DNA from: Candidatus Saccharimonadales bacterium
Lineage (GTDB): Bacteria; Patescibacteriota; Saccharimonadia; Saccharimonadales; UBA4665
Assembly: GCA_036388415.1 (NCBI GenBank)
Contig: DASVRW010000002.1
Span: forward strand, 665,396 to 729,395
Direction of reading: 5' to 3'
Length of the DNA: 64,000 nt
Shown: positions 228 to 20,547 of the stretch, piece by piece
Numbering within the stretch: the stretch's first letter is position 1
How the letters are laid out: every line of letters starts with the position of its first letter
Position numbers and translations under genes: made by a program
The notes under the pieces: model-generated
Databases searched by the model: none
What the model was told of the DNA's origin: nothing
Seen by the model: the letters and a program-made list of their open reading frames with translations, nothing else

Positions 228-229
228 AA

Positions 230-1770: not shown

Positions 1771-1771
1771 G

Positions 1772-5277: not shown

Positions 5278-5292
5278 ACTCCTGATTACCCC

Positions 5293-7551
5293 TTAAACTT
5301 CCACGCTTACGCCGACTTCAACATCAATCATCTGAGATATTTCCTGATATATGTCAGTAGCCTCATCATGCACCATATCTTCGATAGTAATCGCAACGCT
5401 ATATGACTGAATTAGGCTTGCGTCAACCTGGTCATTTAACGCCTCCGCCGTTACTTCAAGCTGCCAAAATACACCCATGTGCTCCCTTGTATTTTTTTCG
5501 ACTGTCGGATAGCTTTTAACATTTGCTTTTTTGGCAGCCCCATCAAGATAGCTTTGAGTCGTGCCATTATCAACGGGCTGGTCATCACTCCTGACAATCT
5601 TCGCAGATATTAAGATTGGATTGTACAGTCCAGGCGCAACTGGATTAACAAGAGGGTTATATACCAGCGTCTTACGCAATCGCAGCCTTTTGCGCGATGA
5701 ACCCGCCAATGCGGCCGGAATGGGTATCTTAACCCGTTTGCGACTATTCACCTTTATCGTGTCCTCAATGATAATCGTGGTCGATGTGCTCAGTGAGTTC
5801 AGCGTACGGTCAAGGTCTGGAAGGCCATGACCGGTTAAAGCTTTAAGCATATTTTCGTCACTAATCTGGGCTGATGCCAGCGGCTGCGCGAAGTGTATCA
5901 GCAGGGCTTTTAATGAGTTTGCGGTGTACGCCGGGTACTTTTTGGAAAGCACGGCTAGATCGTGAGCCACCAGTGGTGTAGCGAAGCTAGTCCCAGGGCC
6001 ACGGATGAGCCCACCGTCTGGGTGCGCCATATAAGGACCGTCATCCTCAGATGAGAAGTTTGTGTCAAAGTTAGAATCATAATGCATCAAGTCAGGCTTG
6101 ACGAGATGATAGCCCTTTGTCTTCAAGAATCCTCGACGAGTAATAGGCGTTGGTTCCTTCGGGCCAGCTAATGAGTTGGGACTAGACCTGTACGCAATCG
6201 AGCCAACGGAAATTGGATTAAGCCCATCGGCCGGTGGCAATACGCAGGTTATCGGGTGATTGAAATAGTTTGGGTAGCCCATGTCCAAAACTTGGTCAAT
6301 CACGGGCTGAGGCCAGCCAGTAAACAGATTTCCTGCCGATACTACGAAGATGCAATTATGCTTTACGGACAGTTCATCAAATAGTACAGTGAGCCGATGA
6401 ATTTTCCGACGGTCATAAAATCCATAATTATTGACTGAGAAATTGGCTATAAGAACTCTATCGGGAGCAGTGTTTTTTTGAACTGCATCAATTATTGCCT
6501 GCTCGTTTAGTAGCCTCTTCCCATTTACGAGTGGAAAGACATTGATTGGTCTAACCTTATTGTCCATTACTAGCCGGCCACTCGAATTGAGCTTTGTGCC
6601 ATGAACTACAAGGCTGGCGACCTGGTTGCCGTGCGTTTCGCCGCCGGTTACATACTCATCGCCAACCTGATCCATGCACGCAGGGGCTAACAACTCATGG
6701 TCGGTATTCACTGGGTAGTCGAGTATCAGCACGGGGTTGCTACCCTCAGTCTCATCGACCAGCTCATAGCTTCCGTCCATGGCTTTTTGAGTACCGCTGC
6801 TCAGTATGACCTCGATTGGCTTTTCGATGCCAATAATTCCCGAATACGAAGCCACTACTTCTTCTAATTTGTCCTTGTCGATGTGCACCCTACAATAGTG
6901 AACCAGCTCAGTATTAACCTCACTAATGAAGCTGTCGCCGAGCCAGTCCTGCATATCCTCGAACTTCCTGGCACTTGTAGCTCGGTCATCACCAAAAACT
7001 ATATCGATATATTCTTCATCTTGCTGAGCTTCAAGCTTGGCGAGCAGTTCGGGGTCAGTAACTTCCTTTACATCAAGCGGCACCAGCTCCTCGATAAGCC
7101 CAAACTTGGACCTACCCTCGTCTGTCTGTATATAATTATCGAGATCCAAGCTCAATTGTTCGTAGTTAGACCTCGCCTGTCGTGGCAACCGACGATTACT
7201 GACCTTACCAAGCACAACCTCGTTGGTATGCTCCTGACCCTCTGGAGTGTCATCGTATTTTGCATACACTGCAACACCATAGCGCTTAATAAGACCTTTA
7301 TTCGCCGCACCTTGGAATCGTAGCTTAATATCCACTACTTCCTTGTCTGAATCGAGCCTCTTCTGTGGCAAAACGGCTTCTTCGTACCGCTTCAATTTGT
7401 TAACTTCGCTTGCAAGCCGGTGTTTATAGGCAGCCTGGTCAGGAAAGCCAGGTAACGGTTGGCCGAATGGCGTCGGAGCGGTCGGCGTGTGTGTCGCAGG
7501 CGTACCGATTAAAGAATTAGGAAGTCGTATATGGTCGTATTTACTTGGCAT
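5293..7551 (-). CDS. ietS: subtilisin-like (S8) protease of an ietAS-type module
   Basis: This 752-aa protein has an S8 catalytic triad in the usual order: Asp in VLILDYPVNTD (about residue 278), His in GETHGNQVAS (about 307), the oxyanion Asn in VVSAGN, and Ser in GTSFATP (about 522). It has no signal peptide, so it is probably cytoplasmic. About 200 residues precede and 200 follow the protease core. Its start overlaps the end of the AAA+ ATPase gene by 11 nt. The pair ATPase + cytoplasmic subtilase is the ietAS arrangement, reported as an anti-phage system and earlier as a plasmid incompatibility locus. Its location beside restriction genes supports a defence role. Confidence 0.85.
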   Translation of the reverse strand: MPSKYDHIRLPNSLIGTPATHTPTAPTPFGQPLPGFPDQAAYKHRLASEVNKLKRYEEAVLPQKRLDSDKEVVDIKLRFQGAANKGLIKRYGVAVYAKYDDTPEGQEHTNEVVLGKVSNRRLPRQARSNYEQLSLDLDNYIQTDEGRSKFGLIEELVPLDVKEVTDPELLAKLEAQQDEEYIDIVFGDDRATSARKFEDMQDWLGDSFISEVNTELVHYCRVHIDKDKLEEVVASYSGIIGIEKPIEVILSSGTQKAMDGSYELVDETEGSNPVLILDYPVNTDHELLAPACMDQVGDEYVTGGETHGNQVASLVVHGTKLNSSGRLVMDNKVRPINVFPLVNGKRLLNEQAIIDAVQKNTAPDRVLIANFSVNNYGFYDRRKIHRLTVLFDELSVKHNCIFVVSAGNLFTGWPQPVIDQVLDMGYPNYFNHPITCVLPPADGLNPISVGSIAYRSSPNSLAGPKEPTPITRRGFLKTKGYHLVKPDLMHYDSNFDTNFSSEDDGPYMAHPDGGLIRGPGTSFATPLVAHDLAVLSKKYPAYTANSLKALLIHFAQPLASAQISDENMLKALTGHGLPDLDRTLNSLSTSTTIIIEDTIKVNSRKRVKIPIPAALAGSSRKRLRLRKTLVYNPLVNPVAPGLYNPILISAKIVRSDDQPVDNGTTQSYLDGAAKKANVKSYPTVEKNTREHMGVFWQLEVTAEALNDQVDASLIQSYSVAITIEDMVHDEATDIYQEISQMIDVEVGVSVEV

Positions 7552-8617
7552 AATTTATAAGTGAGTTACGATGGATACCCAAGAAGTCTGCGACGTCTGA
7601 CTTTGTCACATTGCTAGTTAGATACGTCATCAATTTTTTAAGCATTTCGGGATTAGTATCATGAATCTTCTTGATAATGTCAGCCGTTAGTATCCCATCA
7701 GTCGTCGCCGCTTCAAGTATGTCGGAAATGTCCCCAAGATTTTTTTTATTGATGTGAATGCTGATTTGAGCAGATTCGAAAACGCCCTTTATGGCATCGA
7801 CTGTCCTAAGATTGGCCGCAAAAAGCAAATCAACAAGCAGGGTTTTCTCCACCGGCTTAACTTGTAATTGTTCCTTGAAAACTTCCTCGAGCAAAAAGTC
7901 CACATAGTCCTTTATATCTTTTTTGGTAAGTTCTGGGATATTCAGCTTAATGGGAAATCTTCTTAGAATTGCAGGGTCAATCGTGTCAACAAGATTGGTC
8001 GCTACAATCACTATTCGGTCGCTCGATACTACGTCAAGGGTCTGTATCAGCGAGTTCACGATCCTTTTCAATTCACCAACGTCATTAGTGTCCGAGCGGC
8101 TTTTAGCGAAAGCATCGAATTCATCGATGAAGATTATCGAATTGCCCTTATCTTCAAAAATGTTCGCCATATTTTTGAGCGTCTCACCAAACTTGAAAGA
8201 TATAACGTCTGATACTTTCACATATTCCAGTTTCCTATTGAGTCGCTGTGCAATGTAGAATCCGACCGTAGTCTTGCCAGTGCCAGGAGGTCCATACAAG
8301 AGAATTTTATTGAATTTACCCTTTAAAGAAGCGGGCATTGTCGGATCTTCACACAAATTAACGAGCTTGTCCAACCGTTTTTGCATTACCTTATTGAACC
8401 AAAGATTCTCTTGAGAAGCGCTGTTCTGTCGGGTGTATCCCGAGGCCATTACCACCTGGTTTTCTTGAGATTCGATAATCTCCACTAAGCCGTGATAAAG
8501 GCTGATTTTCTTCTTGTTGGCGCTGTCAGCTGCCAAAAATTTAAGGTAGTCAAGTAGGGCGACCTTGTCTCCCGACAAACCCAGCTTTGCCAAATTGATT
8601 ACAGATTCAGTATTCAT
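7541..8617 (-). CDS. ietA: AAA+ ATPase of an ietAS-type module
   Basis: A single AAA+ domain is visible: Walker A GPPGTGKTT (about residue 110), Walker B SIIFIDEFDAF, sensor-1 VIVATN and an arginine-finger-like AILRRFP. About 100 N-terminal residues have no motif I know. The C-terminus ends in a short HTH-like stretch (KSDVADFLGIHRNSLINY). It is the promoter-proximal gene of the pair; a TATACT hexamer lies ~35 nt upstream and a purine-rich GAAGGGCGG sits before the ATG. It presumably senses or unfolds a target for the overlapping protease; that division of labour is inference. Confidence 0.85.
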   Translation of the reverse strand: MNTESVINLAKLGLSGDKVALLDYLKFLAADSANKKKISLYHGLVEIIESQENQVVMASGYTRQNSASQENLWFNKVMQKRLDKLVNLCEDPTMPASLKGKFNKILLYGPPGTGKTTVGFYIAQRLNRKLEYVKVSDVISFKFGETLKNMANIFEDKGNSIIFIDEFDAFAKSRSDTNDVGELKRIVNSLIQTLDVVSSDRIVIVATNLVDTIDPAILRRFPIKLNIPELTKKDIKDYVDFLLEEVFKEQLQVKPVEKTLLVDLLFAANLRTVDAIKGVFESAQISIHINKKNLGDISDILEAATTDGILTADIIKKIHDTNPEMLKKLMTYLTSNVTKSDVADFLGIHRNSLINYAK

Positions 8618-8839
8618 AGTCCGCCCTTCTTTTGCACAATTTTAGTATAACTCTTAATATTTGTGCAGTAAAGAATCATAACCGATATTTTTATCACTTA
8701 GGCATTAGGAGCTCACCATACCGCCATAATTCATTGCCGCCATGCTAGCTGGCGGATTTTCGGTAAGTTTAGTCCTGATAACCTCCACGATGGCCCTCCA
8801 ATAAGGTTATGCTTAGAACGGAGTCAATACTTCTCTGTT
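8618..8839. other. intergenic region carrying repeat copy 1
   Basis: This stretch separates the defence island from the repeat-delimited gene array. It contains the promoter of the ATPase gene (TATACT on the minus strand near 8645), repeat copy 1 and, just after it, a weak 7-bp hairpin followed by TTTT on the plus strand around 8817-8840. No coding frame is convincing. Confidence 0.6.
8777..8811 (+). repeat. intergenic repeat copy R1
   Basis: First copy of the dispersed element with core CGATGGCCCTCCA. Here the ends form a perfect 7-bp inverted repeat, ATAACCT at 8778-8784 and AGGTTAT at 8804-8810. The copy also reads ATG-GCC-CTC-CAA-TAA. It marks the left edge of the array. Confidence 0.85.
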
Positions 8840-9571
8840 TTAAGATTCTAACATGAGTTTAAAATGATTCAGTAAGCGTACCGCTGTCTTACGTACATCT
8901 GAGCGATTATCATAGGTTTGATTTTCGTCCACTACACTGTCTACTACGGCTCTGGCACAGTCGTAAGGGTTGGCCGTAGAGTTATCAATTAGCGAAACAT
9001 CATTCTGGCCTAAAGCCCATTCTATATTGCTAATTCCTTCTTGTAGTCGTTTTTTAATATTATCTTCATCGCCAATTATAAGACGTTCCTGAACTCTTTC
9101 TTTCCAAACCCCAGGCTCTACAGCTAGACAAATTTTAGCCAAGCTTTTAAATGGTAAGTCTTCAAGTTGCGGTATTGAACCCGGTAAGGCTTCAAGCAGA
9201 CAATACCTGGTCGCATATTGATCGGCATGAGAACCATACACATCACCTGTAGTGGGATGTACGACATATTGCACTATCTGGCCTTCTTTGATCTCAGTTG
9301 CTATCTTACGAAGGGCATCAGTTGAGTTTCCTCTGAAATCATAGGCATCCTCACCTTCGGTTGGTCTTATGCTGCGTGTCGTAAAACAGCGCACACGACT
9401 AAAATCAGTGTCGATATCACATATAGTCTTTGAAATTGTTGATTTACCAACCGCAAACGGCGCAACCATAGCTACCAGACCTACTCGTCCAATCTGATCC
9501 ACTATTTCTGAAGCTGGCTGATAGATTGATTCTTCTCGGAGAATCCCTTGCAAAGCTTCTGTAGCATTCAT
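8840..9571 (-). CDS. guanylate-kinase-like P-loop kinase
   Basis: An NMP-kinase fold is indicated by a variant Walker A (APFAVGKST; canonical Gmk has GPSGVGKGT) near residue 41 and by the guanylate-binding stretch FTTRSIRPTEGEDAYDF. At 243 aa it is longer than Gmk (~200), with an unrecognised C-terminal ~60 residues. It is the last gene of a leftward cluster with NUDIX, DegT and Gfo/Idh genes. This context suggests a nucleotide or nucleoside-linked metabolite substrate rather than housekeeping GMP phosphorylation. A TACTCT hexamer 6 nt before the ATG may give a separate leaderless transcript. Confidence 0.7.
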   Translation of the reverse strand: MNATEALQGILREESIYQPASEIVDQIGRVGLVAMVAPFAVGKSTISKTICDIDTDFSRVRCFTTRSIRPTEGEDAYDFRGNSTDALRKIATEIKEGQIVQYVVHPTTGDVYGSHADQYATRYCLLEALPGSIPQLEDLPFKSLAKICLAVEPGVWKERVQERLIIGDEDNIKKRLQEGISNIEWALGQNDVSLIDNSTANPYDCARAVVDSVVDENQTYDNRSDVRKTAVRLLNHFKLMLES

Positions 9572-9616
9572 GAGAGTAGAGTACGAATATTATTTATAAC
9601 AGTCCCGTATAATCTA

Positions 9617-10141
9617 CTATATTCTGCTTTGCTCATATGTGAATGGCTCCTCTCTTTCCAGCTTTTCTAACAAATTTATAGCCAACGTCTGCGTAGAGAG
9701 AAACATCGAGGTATTATCACGTATTTCTTGTAAGTTAAACCAGCCTATATCATTTGATTCTTCTACTCGATGCATTATGGAATCATCATCAACTACACCA
9801 ACATAACAACAGTCGAGATGATAATGCTCGGCCTCGTCTTTTCGGGCCGGGATAAGCTGCTCAAAGAAAAATTCTGGTGGTAATAGCCACGTGGAGTCAG
9901 TACCAGGTACTTCACGATTAATGAAAGAAATGAGTTTAGGAGTAGTTTGCGTCTCCTCAAACGTTTCTCTGAGCACTGCCTCTACGGGATTTTCATAGTC
10001 TTCGACGTGCCCTCCTGGAATCATCCATCTATCAAACTTCTTATGATGAACAAATAGTATTTTCCAGCCCTTACTAGACTTGTTCATCACGAACATACTC
10101 GCCGTATAGTGTTTGGTTCTTTGATCGCTATTCATGTTCAT
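9617..10141 (-). CDS. NUDIX hydrolase
   Basis: The Nudix box is complete: GGHVEDYENPVEAVLRETFE followed by ET, matching G-x5-E-x7-R-E-x2-E-E. The protein is 174 aa and probably hydrolyses a nucleoside-diphosphate-X substrate; the exact one cannot be read. It overlaps the stop of the DegT gene. Two ATGs (10141 and 10135) follow an AAGGAG, and the second has the better spacing. It sits between a sugar-aminotransferase-like enzyme and a GMP-kinase-like protein. Confidence 0.88.
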   Translation of the reverse strand: MNMNSDQRTKHYTASMFVMNKSSKGWKILFVHHKKFDRWMIPGGHVEDYENPVEAVLRETFEETQTTPKLISFINREVPGTDSTWLLPPEFFFEQLIPARKDEAEHYHLDCCYVGVVDDDSIMHRVEESNDIGWFNLQEIRDNTSMFLSTQTLAINLLEKLEREEPFTYEQSRI

Positions 10142-11253
10142 ACTCCTTGTTTTATTAAACCCTCGTTGAATGTATCAGCTATATAGCTTAAATCATCTTC
10201 GCTCAGTCCTTCATGGGTTGGCAACGTAATTATAGAACTAATAAGCCTTTCAGCTACCTCACATTTTACTTTAAACTCATTAAATAAGGGCATCTCGTAA
10301 AGCGGTTTATAATTATATGCATAGGTATCAGAAACAATACTGTGTAAATTTAAATAATCAGCCAATGCACTTACATTAATAATGGAATCATCCAAGACTA
10401 CTGCCAATGAATAGTAGTTACTTATTCCGGCGACCTTTACTTCGTACGATAGGCTAGGCAATTTAATCATTTTGATGATTCTTTGAGCATTGCTGGTTCT
10501 AGTTTCAATTTTGTCGTCCAGCTTACTAAGCTGAGTTATCCCTAATGCTCCATTTATCCCACACAAACGGTAATTGAGTCCAAACTCAACACCATATTCA
10601 TACGATGTACCTACACCAAATGATCGGTAGCCAACCAGCGCTCTGCGCATATCCTCGTCGTCGGTTAAAATAAATCCCCCCTCTCCAGTCGTAATCATTT
10701 TGCGTTCATGCGTACTGAAGATCGATATGTGGCCGCTAGAACCCATAATCTTTCCATCCGCAAGCTTACTCCCGTGACAGTGCGATAAATCTTCAATTAA
10801 TGTAATACCCCTTGCCTGGCAAAAATCTTTTAGCTCGTTACTATTATTTGGATACCCCCACATGGGTACATTCAATAAAACTTTGGTTAAATGAGTTATC
10901 TTTTTGCTTATGTCGTCGATTGATATGTCGAAATTCTCAATTGATTTAAGGTCCACGAATACCGGCTTTGCACCGAGACTCAGTATGGGCAAAATAGACA
11001 TTATAGGGGCTGTAGGAGGAAGCATTACCTCGTCCCCATTCCTTACACCTGCTACATATAGCGCCATCACAATCGCTGATGTGCCATTTGAACAGGTAAT
11101 TGCGTATTGTGTTCCAAAGTAGTCAGCGAGTCGACGTTCATATTCATCAATAAATGAACTCTTGCCAGAAATAACATCACTTTTAAGGGATTTACATACA
11201 TATGCAATGTCTTCATCAGTGATATTCACGAAGCAGTTTCGCAGTATATTCAT
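10138..11253 (-). CDS. DegT/DnrJ/EryC1 family PLP aminotransferase
   Basis: The family signature FSTHERKMITTGEGGF contains the PLP-binding Lys followed by the conserved TGEGG loop. SNGTSAIVMALYVAGV near residue 60 is the phosphate-binding region and LIEDLSHCHGS holds the PLP Asp. At 371 aa it has the usual length. Members aminate keto-sugars on nucleotide carriers or related cyclitols. The start ATG overlaps the stop of the upstream Gfo/Idh frame (ATGA), showing translational coupling. Together with a dehydrogenase, this would make a ketone and then an amine, a common amino-sugar logic. Confidence 0.9.
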   Translation of the reverse strand: MNILRNCFVNITDEDIAYVCKSLKSDVISGKSSFIDEYERRLADYFGTQYAITCSNGTSAIVMALYVAGVRNGDEVMLPPTAPIMSILPILSLGAKPVFVDLKSIENFDISIDDISKKITHLTKVLLNVPMWGYPNNSNELKDFCQARGITLIEDLSHCHGSKLADGKIMGSSGHISIFSTHERKMITTGEGGFILTDDEDMRRALVGYRSFGVGTSYEYGVEFGLNYRLCGINGALGITQLSKLDDKIETRTSNAQRIIKMIKLPSLSYEVKVAGISNYYSLAVVLDDSIINVSALADYLNLHSIVSDTYAYNYKPLYEMPLFNEFKVKCEVAERLISSIITLPTHEGLSEDDLSYIADTFNEGLIKQGV

Positions 11254-12258
11254 TTTTTATACTTCCCGTTTAATTCAGTTGATAGATATGAAATGATCTC
11301 ATATGTTGGCACCATACTCTCTAGACTATTTTTAAAACTCAAACCACGACGTACGTCGCGAAAGAAATTGTCCAGCTCGTTTGAGAATCCTGCATTTTTG
11401 GCGGAGGAAGATAGTGGAGAATTATTGAAATTCAAAGACGGCGCTTTACCAAAAATAATTCTTTCTTTCTACTTCGGCAACAATCTTCATCTGATTTATA
11501 TTGTCAACGGAGGCAACAAGACCGTTCGAACCGTAAATTTCTACCCGGTGTTCAAAATACGGATAATATGTGCTGCACTTCAAAATGCCAATGGTGCCGC
11601 TAGTAAAGTCAAGAATTACATCAACAAAAAGAGGGCTGTCGTGCATGGACGAACGAAACGATACATCTCTGACCTTTCCTCCGATCTCTAACATTTGGTG
11701 CAATGGGTGAATAAGTTGAGCTAAGAGAAAAGAATCTGCTATGCTTTCGTATCCCCAAAGTGGTTCACGAGGCTTGCTAGAATGGTGGTTAATCTCGATC
11801 CTAGTTATATCACCAAAATACGCTGTATCCCGGATGATTTTGGTTAGCGCACCTGACATCTCTGTAAAGCCGAAATTCATACCGACACCCGTCATTGCGG
11901 AGCGATATTTTTTGTTCAAATCAATCAATTCCGTTAACTGCTCGATATTCTCTACCGGTGGCTTCTCCACAAATACATGCTTGCCTTTTTCTATTGCTTT
12001 CTTGGCAACCAAGTAATGCACATTTGGGTGACTTGCGACTATTATAGCTTCGATGCTGGGGTCGTTAACTAAATCTACGTAGTTCGTATAGGTATTTTCA
12101 ACGTTATATCTGCGGGACGCTGTTTTCAATTCTTTAGTATCGATGTCACATATTGCCATAAGATTTGCAAATGAGGAGGTTAGAACTGCTGGGATTAAGT
12201 TATCGTTACTTTGTTGACCGATACCAACCACACCAACTTTGACTAACTGCTTGTTCAT
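11250..12258 (-). pseudogene. Gfo/Idh/MocA oxidoreductase, frameshifted
   Basis: The 5' part (from 12258 to a stop at 11446) encodes the NAD-binding Rossmann domain (VGVVGIGQQS...AICDID) and the EKPPV motif of this family, but ends about 65 residues early. The following frame, to 11250, encodes a plausible C-terminus (ELDNFFRDVRRGLSF...). The two join if one base is removed from the five-A run at 11451-11455 (T5 on the coding strand), giving ~335 aa, the normal family length. So this is a recent +1 insertion, a sequencing error, or programmed slippage. It heads the amino-sugar-like cluster. A TATACT hexamer lies just upstream of the start. Confidence 0.75.
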
Positions 12259-12337
12259 ATCTTAGATAGTATATAAATTAACATTGTTTAGTTATAGCCA
12301 ATTTCATTTTATTATCGGTAGCTACTAATCTAGTTGC

Positions 12338-12376
12338 AATAACGTCTACGATGGCCCTCCAAGCATAAACATTATG
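12338..12376 (+). repeat. intergenic repeat copy R2
   Basis: Core AACGTCTACGATGGCCCTCC, followed by AGCATAAACATTATG. It reads ATG-GCC-CTC-CAA-GCA-TAA. It lies between the divergent Gfo/Idh and Ham1 genes and shares its right half (AGCATAAxCA) with copy R4. Confidence 0.9.
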
Positions 12377-12377
12377 A

Positions 12378-12405
12378 GATCTCTGTATATCAGAGGTCTT
12401 TTTGT
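12378..12405 (+). terminator. hairpin with T-run after R2
   Basis: AGATCTCTG and CAGAGGTCT form a 9-bp stem (one G-U) around TATAT, followed by TTTTG. It reads as a rho-independent terminator on the plus strand, although the gene immediately upstream is on the minus strand. It would end transcripts crossing the repeat. Confidence 0.7.
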
Positions 12406-12418
12406 TATAATTCGTAAA
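12406..12418 (+). promoter_or_regulatory. leaderless promoter of the Ham1 gene
   Basis: TATAAT at 12406-12411 ends 7 nt before the ATG, so transcription should start on the A of the start codon. It begins in the T-run of the preceding hairpin. Confidence 0.75.
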
Positions 12419-12960
12419 TGATCGATATCACGTTTATAACTGGCAATCAAAATAAAGCTGATTACCTAGCAAGATATTTGGAACTCCCCGTCAAACATCA
12501 CAAGATGGATCTGGACGAAATCCAGAGCTTAGACTTGCGCACCATCGTGAAGCACAAGCTATTACAGGCCTATGATGAAGTGAAGCAGCCAGTTCTCGTC
12601 GAAGATGTCTCTCTTGAATTTGAAGCATTAGGCAGGCTGCCTGGTACATTCATAAGATTCTATGTCGACGAAGTACCCTTCGAAACTATTTGTAGAACTT
12701 TGGATGGACTCAGTCGTAATGCCACGGCTAAAAGCATCTACGGCTACTACGACGGCACAAGTATGGAATTCTTTGAGAGCGGCATGAAGGGCGTTATCGC
12801 AGACCATCCACGAGGCGAGAATGGCTGGGGCTGGGATAAGATATTCATACCTGTCGGCTACACGCAGACGAGAGCTGAACTGGATGAGGAAGAAGATAAG
12901 AAAACTTATATGATAATTAAGCCTTTTGATAAATTGAAGGCTTTTCTTGAAAGCAAATAG
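12418..12960 (+). CDS. Ham1/RdgB non-canonical purine NTP pyrophosphatase
   Basis: The start FITGNQNKADYL is the family substrate-binding motif ([ST]-x-N-x-x-K). VEDVSLEFEALGRLPGTFI carries the metal-binding acidic residues, and GENGWGWDKIFIP the conserved F/W-G-x-D-P-type stretch. At 180 aa it has the usual length. It would hydrolyse ITP, XTP and dITP to the monophosphates and keep the nucleotide pool clean. It stands alone between repeats R2 and R3 with its own promoter, like a cassette gene. Whether it is the cell's main RdgB or an accessory version is not clear. Confidence 0.88.
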   Translation: MIDITFITGNQNKADYLARYLELPVKHHKMDLDEIQSLDLRTIVKHKLLQAYDEVKQPVLVEDVSLEFEALGRLPGTFIRFYVDEVPFETICRTLDGLSRNATAKSIYGYYDGTSMEFFESGMKGVIADHPRGENGWGWDKIFIPVGYTQTRAELDEEEDKKTYMIIKPFDKLKAFLESK

Positions 12961-12964
12961 TTCC

Positions 12965-12999
12965 AATAGCGTCTACAATGGCCCTCCATACCGGTTATG
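12965..12999 (+). repeat. intergenic repeat copy R3
   Basis: Starts 5 nt after the Ham1 stop: AATAGCGTCTACAATGGCC, then CTCCATACCGGTTATG. It reads ATG-GCC-CTC-CAT-ACC-GGT-TAT-GTT-TAA from 12978. It is most similar to copy R5. Confidence 0.9.
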
Positions 13000-13002
13000 T
13001 TT

Positions 13003-13031
13003 AAACTCCTCTTTTTGAGGAGTTTTTTTAT
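13003..13031 (+). terminator. rho-independent terminator after Ham1 and R3
   Basis: AAACTCCTC and GAGGAGTTT form a perfect 9-bp stem around TTTTT, followed by TTTTTATTTTT. It lies directly after the repeat and ends the Ham1 transcript. Confidence 0.88.
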
Positions 13032-13078
13032 TTTTCTAATTGACTTTTTGTTATGTTAACGCAATAATTCGTTATGTG

Positions 13079-13315
13079 ATGATACACAACAGAATCGCAT
13101 TGTTACGAACTGCAATGGGCATGTCTCGTCAGGAACTCGCCAAGTTAATAGACGTTAACTACCAAACAGTAGGATTTATAGAACGCGGCGACTATTCACC
13201 GAGCCTTGAGTTAGCTTTCAAGATTGCTAAGGCTTTTGATACAGATATTACAACCGTTTTCTCAGACAAACCTTTCGAGCCGCTATTCACTAAAAAGGAG
13301 AATGATAATGGTTAA
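13079..13315 (+). CDS. XRE-family HTH regulator
   Basis: A compact 78-aa HTH_3 protein: ALLRTAMGMSRQELAKLIDV and NYQTVGFIERGDYSPSLELA give helices 2 and 3, with the recognition helix around YQTVGFIE. The ATG at 13079 is chosen because the HTH starts immediately after it and a TTGACT / AATAAT pair (13040-13068) lies close upstream, leaving at most a ~5-nt leader. It overlaps the membrane-protein gene that follows. The pairing of a short Cro-like regulator with a small membrane protein is common; the regulator probably controls the pair. Confidence 0.85.
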   Translation: MIHNRIALLRTAMGMSRQELAKLIDVNYQTVGFIERGDYSPSLELAFKIAKAFDTDITTVFSDKPFEPLFTKKENDNG

Positions 13316-13799
13316 ATTAACTGCCCCGATACATGAAGTATTTCCTCCAAACGGAAAGCTCGCAAAAACATTAACTATCATGTACATTTTGTCGCTAATC
13401 GTAGGAATCGCTGCAATAATTCAGTCCTACAACTATGTTTTCTTCAATGAGAGAGCAATCGCTTTACAAAATACAGGGCGTTTTATGGGGTTACTACAAA
13501 TCGTACTTCTTCCCCTGATATCTGGCATACAAAATGATACATATCGCGCTATACGATTAAAAAAGAAGCAATTAGACGAGCGACAAATCCAAGTCAGACG
13601 AAGGATATTAGAAAAAAGCTACGCTTTTATGACAGTCGTGAGCATTGCCTCACTTTACATTGTGGTTTCGAGTAAGGATTGGGTAATACAAATGCAGCTA
13701 CGCCCCTTCGGCAATGACATGCTTTGGTTGCCTTTTTACGTTTCTCTTCTATTCTTCGCCCTGCCCCCTATTTTTGCCGCCTGGCAAAAAGACAGCTAA
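13308..13799 (+). CDS. membrane protein paired with XRE regulator
   Basis: This 163-aa protein has four predicted membrane segments: two in the first 75 residues (TIMYILSLIVGIAAII; LLQIVLLPLISGI) and two after a charged loop (LKKKQLDERQIQVRRR). An AAAAGGAG ribosome site precedes the ATG and the gene overlaps the end of the regulator by 8 nt. No enzymatic motif is visible. The layout resembles DUF2178-type proteins that follow short XRE repressors, but I cannot confirm the family. Confidence 0.75.
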   Translation: MVKLTAPIHEVFPPNGKLAKTLTIMYILSLIVGIAAIIQSYNYVFFNERAIALQNTGRFMGLLQIVLLPLISGIQNDTYRAIRLKKKQLDERQIQVRRRILEKSYAFMTVVSIASLYIVVSSKDWVIQMQLRPFGNDMLWLPFYVSLLFFALPPIFAAWQKDS

Positions 13800-13828
13800 G
13801 TATCCATTGAAATTTGGATTTTGGTTGC

Positions 13829-13867
13829 GATAACGTCTACGATGGCCCTCCAAGCATAAGCACTATA
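13829..13867 (+). repeat. intergenic repeat copy R4
   Basis: GATAACGTCTACGATGGCCC then TCCAAGCATAAGCACTATAAG. It lies ~30 nt after the stop of the membrane-protein gene. The core is identical to R2 over more than 25 nt. It reads MALQA-stop. No clear terminator follows. Confidence 0.9.
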
Positions 13868-13905
13868 AGATACGCCTAAACTGACTTTTCTGGTATTCTA
13901 TTTAC

Positions 13906-14478
13906 ATGAAATTAACCAAAAAAGGTTTGTTAATTGCTTATGCGATTATATTCATGGCTGCGATTATCACGGGAATTGTATTTTATAATGCTGCTATAGG
14001 TGACGACAGTACCAATATTTTTAGTGTCATTTTCGGATGGCAGTGGCTTTACCTTGCTATTTTTAGTTTTATTATTCTATTGGGGGCAGCCCTCAGCAAA
14101 CGCAAGAACTCATATACTATACCTGGAGTCATCTTAATTTCGCTTACGATAGTTTTTCTACCAGCCCGCTTAGTGGAATCAAGCCATTTGTACGTCACTG
14201 GCGGAGCAGGCCCTTCCGGGCCTCACTTTGCTTGTTTAACGTGGAAAAACTCAGCGATAAATCTTCGTAGCGGAGCCTATGGAGATAATTTAGGCTTATG
14301 TACCCTTATGTCCATTCCTAGTTATAACAAATTTCTTATCGATAGAAGTATTGATGCCGATAGTACGTATGCAACAGCAACAGCTTCGTATTACACTATG
14401 CTAGCAATAAATCAGATGATTATTCTGGTTGGCGGATGGTTTTCCTATCGTACTTTGTCAAAATCAGCTGGATCTTAA
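13906..14478 (+). CDS. polytopic membrane protein, unknown
   Basis: A 190-aa protein with about four hydrophobic segments (residues ~7-28, 45-65, 75-92 and 160-182) and one larger extracytoplasmic loop between the third and last, containing GGAGPSGPHFACLTW and a second Cys near GLCTLM. The loop cysteines could form a disulfide. TATTCT ends 7 nt before the ATG, giving a leaderless mRNA. It is the only gene between repeats R4 and R5. I do not recognise the family. Confidence 0.75.
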   Translation: MKLTKKGLLIAYAIIFMAAIITGIVFYNAAIGDDSTNIFSVIFGWQWLYLAIFSFIILLGAALSKRKNSYTIPGVILISLTIVFLPARLVESSHLYVTGGAGPSGPHFACLTWKNSAINLRSGAYGDNLGLCTLMSIPSYNKFLIDRSIDADSTYATATASYYTMLAINQMIILVGGWFSYRTLSKSAGS

Positions 14479-14495
14479 ATCATAAGTTTAGCTCA

Positions 14496-14530
14496 AATAG
14501 CGTCTACGATGGCCCTCCATTTCGGTTATG
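14496..14530 (+). repeat. intergenic repeat copy R5
   Basis: AATAGCGTCTACGATGGCCC then TCCATTTCGGTTATG, starting ~18 nt after the membrane-protein stop. It reads MALHFGYD-stop from 14509, closely matching the mini-frame of R3. Confidence 0.9.
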
Positions 14531-14652
14531 ATTAAACGTCACACGGGAGGTTTTCTACAATTATTTTAAGTGTGAACGTGCAGGTCGCTATCAACTGAGC
14601 CGTTAATCTAATTGCAATAGTCACCAGACTATCTCTGCGGTATTATGTACAG

Positions 14653-14961
14653 ATGGTAAACATTGACGAAAACTGGCTAAGCGAGCTTGGAGTAATGGCA
14701 TCTAGCGAGAAGGAAACCGAAGCTTTGCTGGACATCATTGAAGAAGAGCTTGAAATTAGAGTCGGAACGAAAGTCATAAACAGCATGAACAAAACCCAGC
14801 TGGAAGAATTTGAGAAGCTTGACGACGACAAACGCGAAAGCTTTATTGACAAGGTCTTTCCAAATTACGATGAGGTTGTCGTACAAGAATACAATTTCAT
14901 CGGTTACCAGATCACGAAGTCAAAAGACAAAACCGAACTTATTAAGAGTTGGGCTGCGTAA
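14653..14961 (+). CDS. DUF5663-type acidic helical protein
   Basis: A 102-aa acidic protein with the pattern WLSELGVM...KETEALLDIIEEELEIRVG...LEEFEKL, which matches small DUF5663-type proteins I associate with Patescibacteria. It has no catalytic motif and is probably cytoplasmic and helical. TATTAT at 14641-14646 ends 7 nt before the ATG (leaderless). Function unknown. Flanked by repeat R5 upstream and a degenerate copy downstream. Confidence 0.75.
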   Translation: MVNIDENWLSELGVMASSEKETEALLDIIEEELEIRVGTKVINSMNKTQLEEFEKLDDDKRESFIDKVFPNYDEVVVQEYNFIGYQITKSKDKTELIKSWAA

Positions 14962-14998
14962 TCGTCGTCAACTGATATTTTTCATAATTTTATGCACT

Positions 14999-15033
14999 AA
15001 GGTCTGCGATGACGCTTTAAGCATAGACCTTTT
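14999..15033 (+). repeat. degenerate repeat copy R5b forming a terminator
   Basis: GGTCTGCGATGACGCTTTAA then GCATAGACC aligns with the R2/R4 form at about 20 of 26 positions. Its ends pair as AAGGTCT / AGACCTT and are followed by TTTT, so this copy itself makes a rho-independent terminator after the DUF5663 gene. Confidence 0.65.
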
Positions 15034-15095
15034 GAACTGACATAATCATGAACTACTGATTTATGATACGCATAAATTTATGATACGTTAGGCCT

Positions 15096-15554
15096 ATGGC
15101 AAGCATACGCATAAAAGGCAAAACTTCTGTCAGTCCGGAACAGTTCATAGCCTCTCTGACTGACTTTGGGCCAAATAGGGAAAAGGTTTGGGGAAATAGT
15201 CAGTCAAGATTTATGGTTGTACATGACCGAGGAACCACATGGACCGAGGTAACAGAAGGCTCGAACTTTTTAGGGGGCATGTGGGAACGGGTGCATTACA
15301 ACTGGTCGGAACCAAATACCATAGTTTTGCGTACTATCACTAGTAATGTCTGGAATGACAAAAGCGGCTGGCAGTACCAGCTGAATGAGGCGCCAGATGG
15401 CTCTGGCACTATGATCGAGTATACGATTACGCGTTTTGCGAAGAACAGAAAAGGACGCTGTATACTCATCCTGATGCGGATTATTGGTAAGCCTTTACTT
15501 ACCCGAAACTTCCGTCAGACATTGAGGGCCATTGAAAAAAGTGTTACTTATTAA
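15096..15554 (+). CDS. SRPBCC (START-like) domain protein
   Basis: This 152-aa protein has the beta-rich pattern of small SRPBCC proteins: an N-terminal SIRIKGKTSVSPEQFIASLTD (strand plus helix), a central WTEVTEGSNF...WERVHYNW, strands such as GSGTMIEYTITRF, and a long C-terminal helix (FRQTLRAIEKSV). Such folds bind hydrophobic ligands; no ligand can be named. A TATGAT hexamer ends 12 nt before the ATG, so the leader is very short. It overlaps the next membrane-protein gene by 23 nt. Confidence 0.7.
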   Translation: MASIRIKGKTSVSPEQFIASLTDFGPNREKVWGNSQSRFMVVHDRGTTWTEVTEGSNFLGGMWERVHYNWSEPNTIVLRTITSNVWNDKSGWQYQLNEAPDGSGTMIEYTITRFAKNRKGRCILILMRIIGKPLLTRNFRQTLRAIEKSVTY

Positions 15555-16122
15555 AAAATCACGACCACATCACATCTTTGCAGCAGGTCAGATCACATTA
15601 GGCATCTGTTTGTTACTATGCCTAATATTGGTGCCTCGTTATTTCTTTTCCTTGAACCAGGGTGGGATAAGTAATTACGGCACTGAACCACAAACGAAGT
15701 GGCTATACGCCGCCGGTTTCAGTGGCGCCACGATCGGTACTATGCTAGCGGCCATAGTACTGCCGAAAGCCACAAAGCGACGATTGCAATTACGGTTTAT
15801 TCTATTAATTCTGAGCGCCCTCTATCTGGTAGTCATGGTCAGTACTTTTTCCTATAAGCTCAGCCCGTCATTCCAGCAATTTCATGAATTATCTGCACTT
15901 GTTCTGTTTATTAGCATGCTTCTAACCTCTCTCTGGTTGAGGTTTATTGCAGTAAAAAACAGCTACATAAATCGGTTATTCATATTTTTATGCATATGCA
16001 TGGCCCTTGGTGTCCTCAATTACCTTGAAGTGTTACATATATTGTTCGTCATTGAAGTGGTAACTGGTGTAATATTTGCCTTGCAGCTGACACATTGGTT
16101 GCAAACTTCAGCAGCACGCTGA
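15532..16122 (+). CDS. polytopic membrane protein, unknown
   Basis: A 196-aa hydrophobic protein with about six membrane segments and no enzyme motif. The gene overlaps the 3' end of the SRPBCC gene, so they form one operon and may work together. The start is either TTG 15532 or GTG 15541; a GAGGG precedes both. Nothing in the loops identifies a family. Confidence 0.65.
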   Translation: MKKVLLIKKSRPHHIFAAGQITLGICLLLCLILVPRYFFSLNQGGISNYGTEPQTKWLYAAGFSGATIGTMLAAIVLPKATKRRLQLRFILLILSALYLVVMVSTFSYKLSPSFQQFHELSALVLFISMLLTSLWLRFIAVKNSYINRLFIFLCICMALGVLNYLEVLHILFVIEVVTGVIFALQLTHWLQTSAAR

Positions 16123-16147
16123 TGTTGTAGTAGCTTGCATTTGTTCC

Positions 16148-16181
16148 GATAACATCTATGATGGATCTCCAATCCGGTGAG
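16148..16181 (+). repeat. divergent repeat copy R6
   Basis: GATAACATCTATGATGGATC then TCCAATCCGGTGAG, ~25 nt after the membrane-protein stop. It differs from the consensus at several positions but keeps spacing and the ATG. Here the frame starting at the conserved ATG runs on for over 30 codons instead of stopping. Confidence 0.75.
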
Positions 16182-16342
16182 TCTTTGATTAAGTTAGCAC
16201 ATACACGGCAAAAACCTCCTCCTACCCACTTGCGGTTTCTTTTTATGTCGAACCTACCATAGTTGAGACGGTATAAAATGACAATAATACGACTTGCAAC
16301 TGGTTGCTTTTATAAATATTTTATTATATTATATCGTGCATT

Positions 16343-17335
16343 ATGAGTAATGAAGCGATGAAAATATCCGATGGATCAATACTTTTGTCGCCGGGTCGTC
16401 GTATGTGCGCTTATGACGACAGCAATCGTTATCTTGATGCTATGGAATTACACTTCGAAGAAATAAAGGAACATGGCTTTAATTCTGTACTACTCTGTAT
16501 TACAGAGGCGGATTTGGCTCAGCGAACTGCAATGTATCCAAACAGATCACATATCTCTAAAATGTTCGAGCTTGCGCATGACCACGGTTTATACCCTGGC
16601 ATAGACCCTTGGAAGCTCGGCAATATATTCGGTGGCGAGGCGATGAGCGGACTCGGTACTCAGACACTGCATAAAAACGGCCGAATAAAGGAAGTTGGTA
16701 TCGCAGACCCACATCGGCAAGAAACAGTAGACCTAATGGAACTGTTCCTCGACACGGCAGCAATAGCCAATACAAAATATGTGTTTTTCGACGAACCAAA
16801 TTTCGGTCCTGAAAGCACTGCCGCAGAAATAGAGTTCATAGATAGATGGACGGAGTATGCCCATAGCTTGGGTATAGCCACTTCAGTCTGTCTCACGTCC
16901 GGTAGAAAATTACATGCACTCGCCGAAAAAGTCGTAGCTCTTACTCACGTTGACGAGATAGCAACCGATCCGATATATAGTGGTCCTGCCATTGTTTCCC
17001 TTCTTCCTGGCAGCAATAATGACTCAGTTGAAACATATGTAGGTAATGCTGCTATGACAGTCAGTAAAATAGCACAGGACGCAGGCAAACAAGCGGCCGT
17101 ATGGATTCAAGGTCATATTATCGGGGATGGACATGAACAAGTAATTGTTCATGATGGAGCTACTGAAGCTGCCAAGTATGTAAAAAATCTGGGATTTTGG
17201 GGATTCAGAGGCTGTACCACATATAGCAATATTTCTTCCGTCAACCCCGAACTAGTGTGGCAGATTGCTGGAAGAACCTTTAGCGAACTAGCAAAAACCA
17301 CTCCACAATATTCTCGGCACGATGGTGAATTATAG
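16343..17335 (+). CDS. putative TIM-barrel hydrolase, unassigned
   Basis: A 330-aa protein with the strand/helix rhythm of a TIM barrel: GFNSVLLCITEAD, GLYPGIDPWKLG, TKYVFFDEPNFG, GIATSVCLTSG, AAVWIQGHIIGDG and NLGFWGFRGCTTY. The acidic ends of strands (TEAD, DEPNFG) resemble catalytic positions of glycosidases, but I cannot assign a GH family. It has no signal peptide, so it would be cytoplasmic. It is the sole gene between repeats R6 and R7. TATATT-like hexamers lie just before the ATG. Sugar metabolism is the best guess. Confidence 0.55.
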   Translation: MSNEAMKISDGSILLSPGRRMCAYDDSNRYLDAMELHFEEIKEHGFNSVLLCITEADLAQRTAMYPNRSHISKMFELAHDHGLYPGIDPWKLGNIFGGEAMSGLGTQTLHKNGRIKEVGIADPHRQETVDLMELFLDTAAIANTKYVFFDEPNFGPESTAAEIEFIDRWTEYAHSLGIATSVCLTSGRKLHALAEKVVALTHVDEIATDPIYSGPAIVSLLPGSNNDSVETYVGNAAMTVSKIAQDAGKQAAVWIQGHIIGDGHEQVIVHDGATEAAKYVKNLGFWGFRGCTTYSNISSVNPELVWQIAGRTFSELAKTTPQYSRHDGEL

Positions 17336-17345
17336 TTTGAATTCC

Positions 17346-17372
17346 GATAGCGTCTACTATGGCCTTCATGGC
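17346..17372 (+). repeat. divergent repeat copy R7
   Basis: GATAGCGTCTACTATGGCCT then TCATGGC, ~10 nt after the TIM-barrel gene stop. The right half differs from other copies. It is the right-hand edge of the recognisable array. Confidence 0.75.
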
Positions 17373-17449
17373 ACTTGAATTCTATCAAAAATACATTTCC
17401 TAATTTAGTGACTCCATTATTTCAGGTCCCCTTTGCTATCATATAACCT

Positions 17450-17980
17450 ATGACTAATCAATTTGCTGAAATGCTATCCGTCGGAGGAAAATCAAACTCA
17501 CTCGGCAAGGTGTCTGAAATCATTGATGCGACCCTCAGTGACCAGTCCCGACTTAACGAGTTATATGAATGTTTATTTGACGATGATGCATGGGTAAGAA
17601 TGCGCGCCGCCGATGCGATTGAAAAAGTATGTCGCCAAAAACCTGATTGGCTACTATCGTACATTGATAAGTTCATAGCAAAATTAGCAGAAAGTAACCA
17701 GCCATCGATACAATGGCATTTATCGCAAATCTATGCTCAAGTTGATTTAACACTTACTCAAAAGCAATTTGTTATAAAATGGCTTGAAAATCTTTTAGCT
17801 AACTCCCGGATCGACTGGATCGTCGCAGCAAACGCAATGGACACGCTTGCCCAATTTACAAGAGACGGTTCTTTTAAAAAAGATAAAATGCTTGCTTTAC
17901 TCGCAATCCAGCAGCAGCATAAATCTAACGCTGTCGTTCGGCGGGCTACTAAACTGCTTACGGAATTATCTGCAAAATAA
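17450..17980 (+). CDS. HEAT-repeat-like protein
   Basis: A 176-aa all-helical protein. DDAWVRMRAADAIEKVC followed by SIQWHLSQIYAQV and WIVAANAMDTLAQF has the paired-helix, Asp/Arg-containing pattern of HEAT or HEAT_2 repeats (about four). Such repeats mediate protein binding; partner unknown. An extended -10 (TGC-TATCAT, 17434-17442) lies 8 nt before the ATG, so the mRNA is leaderless or nearly so. There is no partner gene in an operon. Confidence 0.65.
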   Translation: MTNQFAEMLSVGGKSNSLGKVSEIIDATLSDQSRLNELYECLFDDDAWVRMRAADAIEKVCRQKPDWLLSYIDKFIAKLAESNQPSIQWHLSQIYAQVDLTLTQKQFVIKWLENLLANSRIDWIVAANAMDTLAQFTRDGSFKKDKMLALLAIQQQHKSNAVVRRATKLLTELSAK

Positions 17981-18122
17981 AAGCAGCTATCTGTGTTTGC
18001 GCAGATCAACGAATCGATAAGCGGCACGCACTATTCTTGTTGATACGAAGCTTGCTATAGTCATTCAAGAATGAGTATTATGAAAACCCCTGTCACGGAA
18101 GTGTATTTGTTATTATGTAGGA

Positions 18123-18644
18123 ATGTCAGAAATACATTCAGACGCAGAACGGGCACCAATTGGCTTATCGAAGAATGGTATCCCTGTTTGGTACGACAAA
18201 ACATCTTCTCATGCTGCCACCCATATAAATGATACCCCTGATCTCGAAGCACTCGCAGCAGAGATTACAAGAAGCACAGAACTAAATGGTGATTATATGC
18301 AATTTCATACAGATATGGGCCGCGTTGTCGGTACTTCTGATTTAGTTGATGTTGAGCCTGGAGACAAACTGGTTTATGCGAAACGATTAAACCGAGAAAG
18401 CTATACGGTGTTCAACTTGTCTAAGTTGCCACAGCCATCATCATTGGTAACAACAGCGTATGAGGCCAGCAAAGACGGGTCTTATGAACTTATAAGTACG
18501 TGGATTGGGCCAAGCGATTCTCCATCGTTCCCAGGAACTGAACGAGAAACACCCGATAGCAAAGAATTTTGGGCGAAACATGCGCTGGCGTGGGGAAACC
18601 AAGCGATTCAACCAACTTCAAAAACCGATGTTTGCCCTTGGTAA
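18123..18644 (+). CDS. conserved hypothetical protein, 173 aa
   Basis: A soluble protein beginning MSEIHSDAERAPIG and ending TDVCPW, with a central STWIGPSDSPSFPGTERETP segment and FWAKHALAWG. I have an impression of similar C-terminal segments in other bacterial small proteins but cannot name the family. TATTAT at 18111-18116 ends 7 nt before the ATG (leaderless). Neighbours give no clue. Confidence 0.6.
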   Translation: MSEIHSDAERAPIGLSKNGIPVWYDKTSSHAATHINDTPDLEALAAEITRSTELNGDYMQFHTDMGRVVGTSDLVDVEPGDKLVYAKRLNRESYTVFNLSKLPQPSSLVTTAYEASKDGSYELISTWIGPSDSPSFPGTERETPDSKEFWAKHALAWGNQAIQPTSKTDVCPW

Positions 18645-18923
18645 TATTTCGTTTTTAGTTCCAATAATAACTACAGACGTCATCTGCAATAGTCTAAAAC
18701 GGACATAAAACTACTCAGCCTTAGAAAGCTAAGATAAATACACAAGCTCAGCCAGTAACTAATCTTATATCAAGACACTGTCAAACATTACAATCAGCTT
18801 CTGTTACTGAAAATCAACACACCAGCTAGCCGCAAAGTCTTTACGATTTCAGCATTTAGATTTACACTAGCATAGCAAGCATAAGCAAAATATAAATCGT
18901 TTGTTATATCTATAGATACTTTA
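18645..18923. other. intergenic stretch, no gene seen
   Basis: About 280 bp, AT-rich, with no frame that looks coding. TTCCAATAATAACTACAGAC near 18659 vaguely recalls the left end of the array repeat but is too divergent to count. The right end runs into the GH43 promoter. Confidence 0.5.
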
Positions 18924-18952
18924 TTGACAAATATATAAATTTATGATATAAT
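18924..18952 (+). promoter_or_regulatory. perfect sigma70 promoter, leaderless GH43 mRNA
   Basis: TTGACA at 18924-18929, a 17-bp spacer, and TATAAT at 18947-18952: full consensus. The ATG follows 6 nt later, placing +1 on the start codon. It is the clearest leaderless promoter in the window. Confidence 0.9.
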
Positions 18953-18958
18953 AACTAA

Positions 18959-19924
18959 ATGAAAACAATGTTAAATATAAAAACACAATTACGTCGAATT
19001 TATCATCCAAAAACAGCTCGTCAAGTTAGCGGAGTTTTACTCGATTCTGGCGAAGATCCATGGGTTACAACCTACGCAGGTATTTCATACTTCTGTACTG
19101 TCGATCGGGACAAAAGAGGTATTTCAGTATCAAAATTTGAAGAACTATCAGAACTGCCTGAATCCGAATTAAAATCAATTTGGCCAGCCACCCAATCCGA
19201 ACTGCCACCGTATAAAGAAATTTGGGCCCCTGAACTACAACGAGTCGACGACAAATGGTATGTGTACTTTGCGCTCAATAATGGCGATCCCGGCGAAGAA
19301 CGGATGCACGTACTAGAGGCGATGACCGATAACCCGCAGGGCAAGTATGTCTACAAAGGCAAGATTGCGGCAGAAACTGATAGGTGGGCGATTGACGGAT
19401 CAGTCCTAACGCTGCCAGGTTCAAATGAAAAATATTTCGTATGGTCCGGGTGGGACGGCGTCATGAATGAGCAACAAAACATATATATTGCCGCTATGGC
19501 AGATCCCTGCACGCTCAAAAGTGACCGGGTTTGCATTTCAAAACCAGAGCATACTTGGGAAAAACAAGGCTATCCGTATGTCAACGAAGGCCCTCAACCC
19601 CTATGCAATGACCAGGGTGATACATTTATTATCTACTCTGCCAGTGGTAGTTGGACGGACGATTATTGTCTTGGCCAGCTTCGCTTGGTTGGAGATAATC
19701 CACTTGATCCAGCTGCCTGGGCAAAACACTCCCAACCGGTTTTTAAGAAGACTGACACCATATTTGGCCCCGGCCATTGTTCGTTTGTCAAAAACAAGGA
19801 CGGCACTGATAGTATCGTCTATCATACTGCCCGCGCAAAAGGTTCGGGTTGGGACCGCCAGATCAGGGCGCAAGCATTCACCTGGAACGCCGACGGTAGC
19901 CCCGATTTCGGAAAACCCCAATAG
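18959..19924 (+). CDS. GH43 family glycosidase
   Basis: The five-bladed-propeller GH43 hallmarks are present: DPWVTTYAG (catalytic base Asp, about residue 24), APELQRVDDKWYVYF, AIDGSVL (pKa-modulating Asp), NEGP (general acid Glu) and a late FGPGHCSFVK...HTA. Length (321 aa) fits single-domain GH43 arabinofuranosidases or xylosidases. No signal peptide is visible, so it would act on imported oligosaccharides in the cytoplasm. Substrate preference is uncertain. It is driven by a consensus promoter and is monocistronic. Confidence 0.85.
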   Translation: MKTMLNIKTQLRRIYHPKTARQVSGVLLDSGEDPWVTTYAGISYFCTVDRDKRGISVSKFEELSELPESELKSIWPATQSELPPYKEIWAPELQRVDDKWYVYFALNNGDPGEERMHVLEAMTDNPQGKYVYKGKIAAETDRWAIDGSVLTLPGSNEKYFVWSGWDGVMNEQQNIYIAAMADPCTLKSDRVCISKPEHTWEKQGYPYVNEGPQPLCNDQGDTFIIYSASGSWTDDYCLGQLRLVGDNPLDPAAWAKHSQPVFKKTDTIFGPGHCSFVKNKDGTDSIVYHTARAKGSGWDRQIRAQAFTWNADGSPDFGKPQ

Positions 19925-20013
19925 TCGACATTAGGCCTACACCTCAACAATCTAAGCTGATAGCTCCGTGCGTAAAATAAACGCCTGATTTTGGGTTTTG
20001 CTATAGTTGGTAT

Positions 20014-20472: not shown

Positions 20473-20547
20473 CTAAGGTAGTTATATTTTTTATTTCTCT
20501 GATGCGAGCCGTACCCTATACTGACAATCAAACTAAGGAGTAAGCCA

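Follow-up and report, generated by a model that had tools for sequence, protein, structure and literature searches.

What divides the genes of this locus into short units, and do these units move? The window, that is, the whole stretch of DNA analysed, comprises 64,000 nucleotides of a Candidatus Saccharimonadales genome (contig DASVRW010000002.1) and starts at C2:665396. G labels denote genomes, with G000 the window's own genome, and L labels denote loci. A sequence-only reading of the window had described an integron-like array of gene cassettes bounded by an unfamiliar repeat. We consider it very likely that the region is a cassette array. The fuller statement, that it is a tandem array of mobile cassettes anchored at tRNA-Lys and served by a serine recombinase, is in our judgement somewhat favoured.

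The repeat and the tRNA-Lys tail

Seven good copies of a 30-nt repeat, all on the same strand, were found in the window with a position weight matrix (PWM) built from relatives. Their scores were 18.4 to 50.0, while the best non-site position in the 64 kb scored only 1.3 and the reversed DNA of the loci (1.25 Mb) gave zero matches scoring at least 18. Five copies of the 18-nt core GTCTACGATGGCCCTCCA had 0 to 2 mismatches; all five are plus-strand matches and lie between 8783 and 14519 (chance expectation in the window at up to 3 mismatches, 0.01); one 3-mismatch core match sits within a gene at 19580. The copies at 16148 and 17346 were added by repeat finding. At least eight copies had been proposed, and seven were borne out; the one near 15000 (14990-15019) was lost with a PWM score of −5.8. 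All copies are intergenic, as had been read from the sequence, and most come after a plus-strand stop codon. No comparable copy was found elsewhere in the 1.14-Mb own genome, good copies being confined to the window region.

In its right part, GGCCCTCCA, the repeat consists of the 3′ end of a tRNA-Lys gene, with CCA included. The fact that GGCCCTCCA is common to the cassette sites and both tRNA-Lys genes indicates that CCA is the unit boundary. The full 30-nt site is AGTTGCGATAGCGTCTACGATGGCCCTCCA, and its last nine bases are identical to the tRNA-Lys 3′ end. When all copies were aligned, some proved to be tRNA genes themselves (...GGGTTCGAGTCCCAGATGGCCCTCCA). In the own genome a tRNA-Lys(CTT) gene was located at C2:662893-662969, 2.4 kb to the left of the window. 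The unfamiliar site of the sequence-only reading thus ends in a tRNA-Lys tail, and the tRNA gene itself falls a little beyond the window's edge.

ARAGORN placed a tRNA-Lys gene (CTT or TTT) ahead of arrays and in their orientation. Forty site-bearing loci had tRNA-Lys within 13 kb upstream; for G000, G030 and G279 it emerged once neighbouring loci had been joined or fetched. Of the 27 loci lacking it, most begin within about 2.3 kb of the first site, and most break at contig ends. In relatives the core was clustered on one strand at 0.4 to 2 kb spacing. An Rfam scan of seven loci returned tRNAs only. Just after tRNA-Lys in L108, L115, L122, L124, L126, L128 and L129 we observed a strong palindromic terminator followed by a short sequence resembling an antisense tRNA T-arm (e.g., GGATTCGAACCC), which gave nothing beyond tRNA in Rfam among the loci scanned.

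The short core was matched in 38 of 93 genomes of the family, a few of them by chance. A stricter pattern was found in 42 of 393 genomes of the class, in 13 families of Saccharimonadia, and the reversed control gave none. Named records carrying the system were almost all Candidatus Saccharibacteria metagenome-assembled genomes. The site was not found in IMG/VR viral contigs.

Units and their exchange between genomes

We catalogued 137 units with a median length of 782 bp (quartiles 640 and 1526), usually one gene or a toxin-antitoxin pair. Among units shorter than 1.3 kb the longest open reading frame (ORF) pointed toward the site in 78 and away from it in 16. The stop codon lay a median of 15 nt before the 30-nt site, often within it. 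The cargo was diverse: 235 unit ORFs fell into 191 clusters, 172 of them single. Toxin-antitoxin genes (RelBE/YafQ, YoeB-YefM, VapC/PIN) were the largest group, followed by NUDIX, HAD, APH, ABC transport, methyltransferase and putative defence genes. Left ends formed the classes ATACGCTTATGCTTAA, AGCATAAGCACT and ATTTGGT..., often followed by a terminator-like hairpin, and the commonest left end was CTTATGCTTAAA. Cassettes often seem to carry their own promoters. The largest array, in G279, had 19 sites in 15.2 kb behind tRNA-Lys.

Comparison of gene order had been set beforehand as the test for cassettes; its outcome speaks for them, with different arrays between matching flanks and homology breaking at the sites. 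In same-genus and same-family pairs the chromosome matched as far as the end of tRNA-Lys, exactly or in some with a few bases more, the arrays were unrelated, and matching resumed downstream. G155 and G335 matched to +15 and again from +6949/+5050; G075 and G074 matched to 0 and again from +9156/+4853 at 84-85%. Conserved flanks around unrelated arrays were likewise found in G156/G312 and G064/G057. Homologous unit pairs numbered 26. Two of these came from the sister loci L054/L055 and stayed homologous across sites. In all 24 pairs from non-sister arrays homology was lost before the right boundary, at it or within 40 nt of it, in nine of them within 7 nt. A unit consisting of VapBC-like genes and a complete tRNA-Lys(TTT) occurs in two families, in G003 (family f1) and in G100 (family f3); the two copies share 95.6% identity across 850 ungapped bp, and their neighbours are unrelated. 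Genome comparison thus demonstrates, at the level of sequence, anchoring at tRNA-Lys, the unit boundaries, the exchange of units and their transfer between families. Two tRNA-Lys(TTT) genes were observed within the one array of L111, and the tRNA of L054 has the 3′ end AGATGGCCCTCCA, which mismatches its own acceptor stem.

The sites and units of the window are listed in Table 1 together with related features. The proposed division into units stood at the seven sites and failed at about 15000, so the DUF5663 and SRPBCC units of the sequence-only reading may be one; unit 5 perhaps represents two old units. Beyond the array, in window positions 17370-37000, we observed that the chromosome common with the sister genome G081 resumes only near 37.5 kb. 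The variable island starting at tRNA-Lys may be about 40 kb here compared with about 7.5 kb in G081.

Table 1. Sites, units and related features. Positions are those of the window unless a locus is given.
Feature	Position	Strand	Evidence and remarks
Cassette site 1	8771-8800	+	AGTCCTGATAACCTCCACGATGGCCCTCCA; PWM 36.3; also apparent right end of the serine-recombinase element starting at tRNA-Lys
Cassette site 2	12332-12361	+	PWM 50.0; core exact
Cassette site 3	12959-12988	+	PWM 44.6
Cassette site 4	13823-13852	+	PWM 49.1; core exact
Cassette site 5	14490-14519	+	PWM 39.2; core exact
Cassette site 6, diverged	16142-16171	+	PWM 28.8
Cassette site 7, most diverged	17340-17369	+	PWM 18.4
Unit 1: NUDIX, DegT-type aminotransferase and Gfo/Idh/MocA oxidoreductase among genes	8801-12361	-	Pfam; between sites 1 and 2
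Unit 2: Ham1/ITPase-like gene 12418-12960	12362-12988	+	PF01725, E=7.9e-30; site 3 at end
Unit 3: HTH_3 (XRE) regulator 13079-13315 and small protein, probably membrane, 13308-13799	12989-13852	+	PF01381, E=9.7e-15; site 4 at end
Unit 4: probably membrane protein 13906-14478	13853-14519	+	No Pfam match; bounded by sites 4 and 5
Unit 5: DUF5663 14653-14961, ORFs 15096-15554 and 15532-16122	14520-16171	+	PF18908; site 6 at end
Unit 6: protein 16343-17335, a putative TIM barrel in the sequence-only reading	16172-17369	+	No Pfam match; site 7 at end
Tyrosine recombinase	838-1992	-	PF00589; integron-integrase model TIGR02249 27 bits, cut-off 265
Rest of ~11-kb element, tRNA-Lys to site 1	1-8770	.	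C5 methyltransferase 3733-4782, Vsr 4861-5277, subtilase 5293-7551, AAA ATPase 7541-8617
VapBC-like and tRNA-Lys(TTT) mobile unit	L054:882-1731; L111 ~10212-11045	L111 -	
Probable dif of clade	L148 (G067:C2:742406-742555)		ACTTAACATTATACCACTTATGTCAAGT; assignment inferred
Repeated tRNA-Gly tails	L198 (G233), +14956 and +15774 from tRNA-Gly		Conserved upstream halves
Repeated tRNA-Trp tails	L195 (G018), +7787 and +7972 from tRNA-Trp		Conserved upstream halves
Repeated tRNA-Asn tails	L203 (G021)		Conserved upstream halves

The candidate enzyme and competing explanations

The best candidate for the cassette enzyme is probably a large serine recombinase of a tRNA-Lys-specific clade, whose own elements close with that site too. 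The own-genome member (PF00239) lies to the left of the window at G000:C2:662928-664601 (= L061:7428-9101), antisense and reading into tRNA-Lys, and has weak similarity to CcrB/CcrC models (41 bits, cut-off 900). Its ORF extends into tRNA-Lys, the final codons (RARRDSNPRHPA) being tRNA antisense. It opens an element of about 11 kb (tyrosine recombinase, DNA methylase/Vsr, subtilase, AAA ATPase) that ends at site 1. The tyrosine recombinase that had been linked to the array is real, as a part of this neighbouring element, and is not likely to be the cassette enzyme.

In a search of the 393 genomes the closest homologues of the own recombinase lay at tRNA-Lys in G328, G030, G100, G057 and G308. 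All six recombinases, including that of G000, are antisense at the tRNA 3′ end, and in four of the six, those with enough sequence, a cassette-type site comes after the element. The G030 element has a homologous recombinase and other cargo and ends at a canonical site at +11484. In G308 one site comes after the element, and next to it a strong terminator-like sequence resembling the tRNA's own terminator; the element itself thus seems to have this site as its right end. In G233 the right-end sequence is another one, joined to the tRNA-Gly tail, and it is common to an element at tRNA-Gly and the 0.8-kb unit that follows. The right ends in G308 and G233 indicate that the right-end sequence goes with the tRNA and the enzyme clade, which favours a serine recombinase with cassettes as its non-autonomous partners. 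Recombinases of the Lys clade were found in 5 of 42 array genomes and 1 of 351 others (Fisher p=6e-5, uncorrected for phylogeny). The repeated tails at other tRNAs (Table 1) suggest smaller cassette arrays at tRNA-Gly, -Trp and -Asn; the tRNA-Gly site was found in one more genome of the class, G217.

Across L160-L189 we observed a broad family of large serine recombinases antisense at tRNA 3′ ends, with a separate tRNA for each clade (Lys, Asn, Trp, Gln, Gly, Ser, Arg, Leu). The serine recombinase at G087:C2:76108-76539 has four in-frame TAG codons and is a pseudogene or a recoded gene. No relatives of the own serine recombinase were found in IMG/VR viral contigs.

In the explanation we favour, each cassette begins right after the CCA of the preceding unit or of tRNA-Lys, often has a terminator, a promoter and one gene or small operon of its own, and closes with the 30-nt site. 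Because the site restores the nine terminal bases of tRNA-Lys, the array can grow or shrink without breaking the tRNA gene. A circular cassette would be the intermediate, crossover would fall within GGCCCTCCA, and a large serine recombinase of the tRNA-Lys clade would act in trans on cassettes resembling cis-mobilizable elements. Arrays without the enzyme may be stranded or served by incoming elements.

Several observations weigh against this explanation. Five loci (L063, L080, L118, L122, L135) have at least 5 kb upstream without tRNA-Lys. There was no significant excess of inverted-repeat co-variation between the two cassette ends, and no insertion polarity was detected, sites farther from the tRNA not being significantly more decayed (p=0.15). 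Cassette left ends are unlike those of the serine-recombinase elements. Excision and circular cassettes are steps that we infer from sequence. Six array genomes (G001, G006, G032, G155, G156, G335), 75-99% complete by the tables and mostly above 90%, had no serine recombinase match and one Xer-like tyrosine recombinase each. In most arrays no integrase is linked. Where the first unit of an array opens with a strong terminator, a recombinase was sought between tRNA-Lys and the first site, and cargo genes only were found.

The same array could be run by the single chromosomal Xer, as for pdif modules and phages that are integrative mobile elements exploiting Xer (IMEX), or by an unrecognised host enzyme. 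The Xer-like enzyme is the only recognised site-specific recombinase in those six genomes and occurs in nearly all genomes tested, and the commonest left end, CTTATGCTTAAA, has TTATG in common with the XerD arm. However, apart from this the cassette site does not resemble the clade's likely dif, the arm-like parts are about 25 bp apart instead of 6, and Xer is equally present in array-less genomes. We regard this as unlikely, yet as the most serious of the alternatives. A dif-like origin of the site was rejected, the candidate dif in L148 differing in sequence and spacing. A casposon-like insertion by Cas1 was rejected as well, Cas1 being found in 0 of 16 array genomes (control rings, 9 of 14).

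That several genomes have no resident enzyme and that flanks are conserved would also fit a swapping of cassettes by transformation and homologous recombination between the conserved tRNA-Lys region and the flanks, the repeats being relics. This seems improbable. The boundaries lie at 30-nt sites of differing sequence, and 30 nt is too short for RecA. Single units were found in different neighbourhoods, and the site is conserved though its upstream half is not tRNA, which speaks against a relic.

Tandem small cassettes, genes facing the site and clean gain or loss are what defines an integron by arrangement, and all were found here. Cassette size, orientation, stop-codon spacing and the common toxin-antitoxin units are integron-like too. 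A true integron, or a cluster of attC sites lacking an integron integrase (CALIN), with odd attC sites is nevertheless very improbable. The 133 sites had no hairpin (mean z −0.2 for the top and 0.0 for the bottom strand); the attC of aadA7 as control, in what we take from general knowledge to be its sequence, gave −6.0 and −5.2. This lack of an attC folding signal refutes the attC-site version of the integron reading. The complementary outer boxes noted in three copies are not general; they come from one left-end class (23 of 115 units), and the 133 sites fold no better than shuffled sequence. No IntI was found, in agreement with the sequence-only reading: the integron-integrase model fails on the window's tyrosine recombinase (Table 1), and most array genomes hold only Xer-like enzymes, a single one in most genomes tested. 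The sites, moreover, end in tRNA sequence. Repeat-bounded mobile cassettes with an unfamiliar site therefore hold, and the attC logic does not.

A dispersed repeat, terminator-like or regulatory and uninvolved in gene movement, would account for intergenic copies after the stop codons of unrelated genes, often with terminators next, but it is scarcely credible, as the repeats are confined behind tRNA-Lys genes, unit boundaries are homology breaks, and conserved flanks around differing arrays contradict it.

The broadest statement is that of an integron analogue run by a serine integrase, with gene-sized cassettes captured singly at a tRNA tail throughout the class and less-used parallels at other tRNA genes (Gly, perhaps Trp and Asn). 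To this we give slightly less than even credence. Saccharibacteria are ultrasmall, host-dependent epibionts or parasites with genomes of about 1 Mb. The arrays would be a dedicated place in reduced genomes where single genes (toxin-antitoxin, NUDIX, phosphotransferase, transporters, defence) swap between species and families. If the statement is true, integron-like gene capture has been built on a tRNA end, probably with a serine integrase, and explains gene gain by reduced genomes; the site together with tRNA-Lys would be a simple metagenome marker for cassettes, and the sites possible landing places for genetic tools in Saccharibacteria.

Comparison with known systems

Text searches of the open-access literature, with subscription papers and preprints outside their scope, found no such arrays described in Saccharibacteria or Patescibacteria. 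The site is indeed unfamiliar; the suggestion of a new kind of cassette system goes too far, as tandem islands anchored at tRNA or tmRNA genes are known in other bacteria.

The arrays resemble integrons and CALINs in their small same-strand cassettes, the stop codon near the site, the frequent toxin-antitoxin genes and the often absent enzyme. They differ in having no attC fold, attI or IntI and in their tRNA-gene anchor. The staphylococcal cassette chromosome (SCC), with its Ccr enzymes, is similar to the arrays in that a large serine recombinase goes with tandem elements and with direct repeats at the end of one gene. In SCC, however, the target is rlmH, and the elements are not gene cassettes but run to tens of kb.

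Accretion of integrative and conjugative elements (ICEs), integrative and mobilizable elements (IMEs) and cis-mobilizable elements (CIMEs) is known at streptococcal tRNA-Lys, e.g., the CTT gene of Streptococcus agalactiae (PMC5704250). As in the arrays, insertion there is tandem and site-specific at the tRNA-Lys 3′ end, and integrase-less elements are kept between att sites (PMC5704250). Those elements are conjugative, mobilizable or decayed, use tyrosine integrases and number few per locus, whereas here there are long arrays of gene-sized cassettes.

By analogy, the closest precedent is the ssrA islands of Dehalococcoides, which have a tmRNA anchor, a 20-bp repeat and, in many, a six-gene integration module with reductive dehalogenase genes (McMurdie et al. 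2011, PMC3146451). In both systems tandem units stand behind an RNA gene with direct repeats of its 3′ end plus an extra conserved upstream motif. A large serine recombinase, CcrB-like in Dehalococcoides, lies on the reverse strand beside the RNA gene, here in some units, and many units have no integrase, which in Dehalococcoides was read as cis-mobilizable elements (PMC3146451). Unlike the ssrA islands, the arrays have a tRNA-Lys anchor, a common tail of 9-12 bp, mostly single-gene units of about 0.8 kb, as many as 19 sites and rarely a linked integrase. What sets the arrays apart is the single-gene scale, the number of sites (up to 19), the rarity of a linked integrase, the short common tail and the spread over a class of ultrasmall bacteria.

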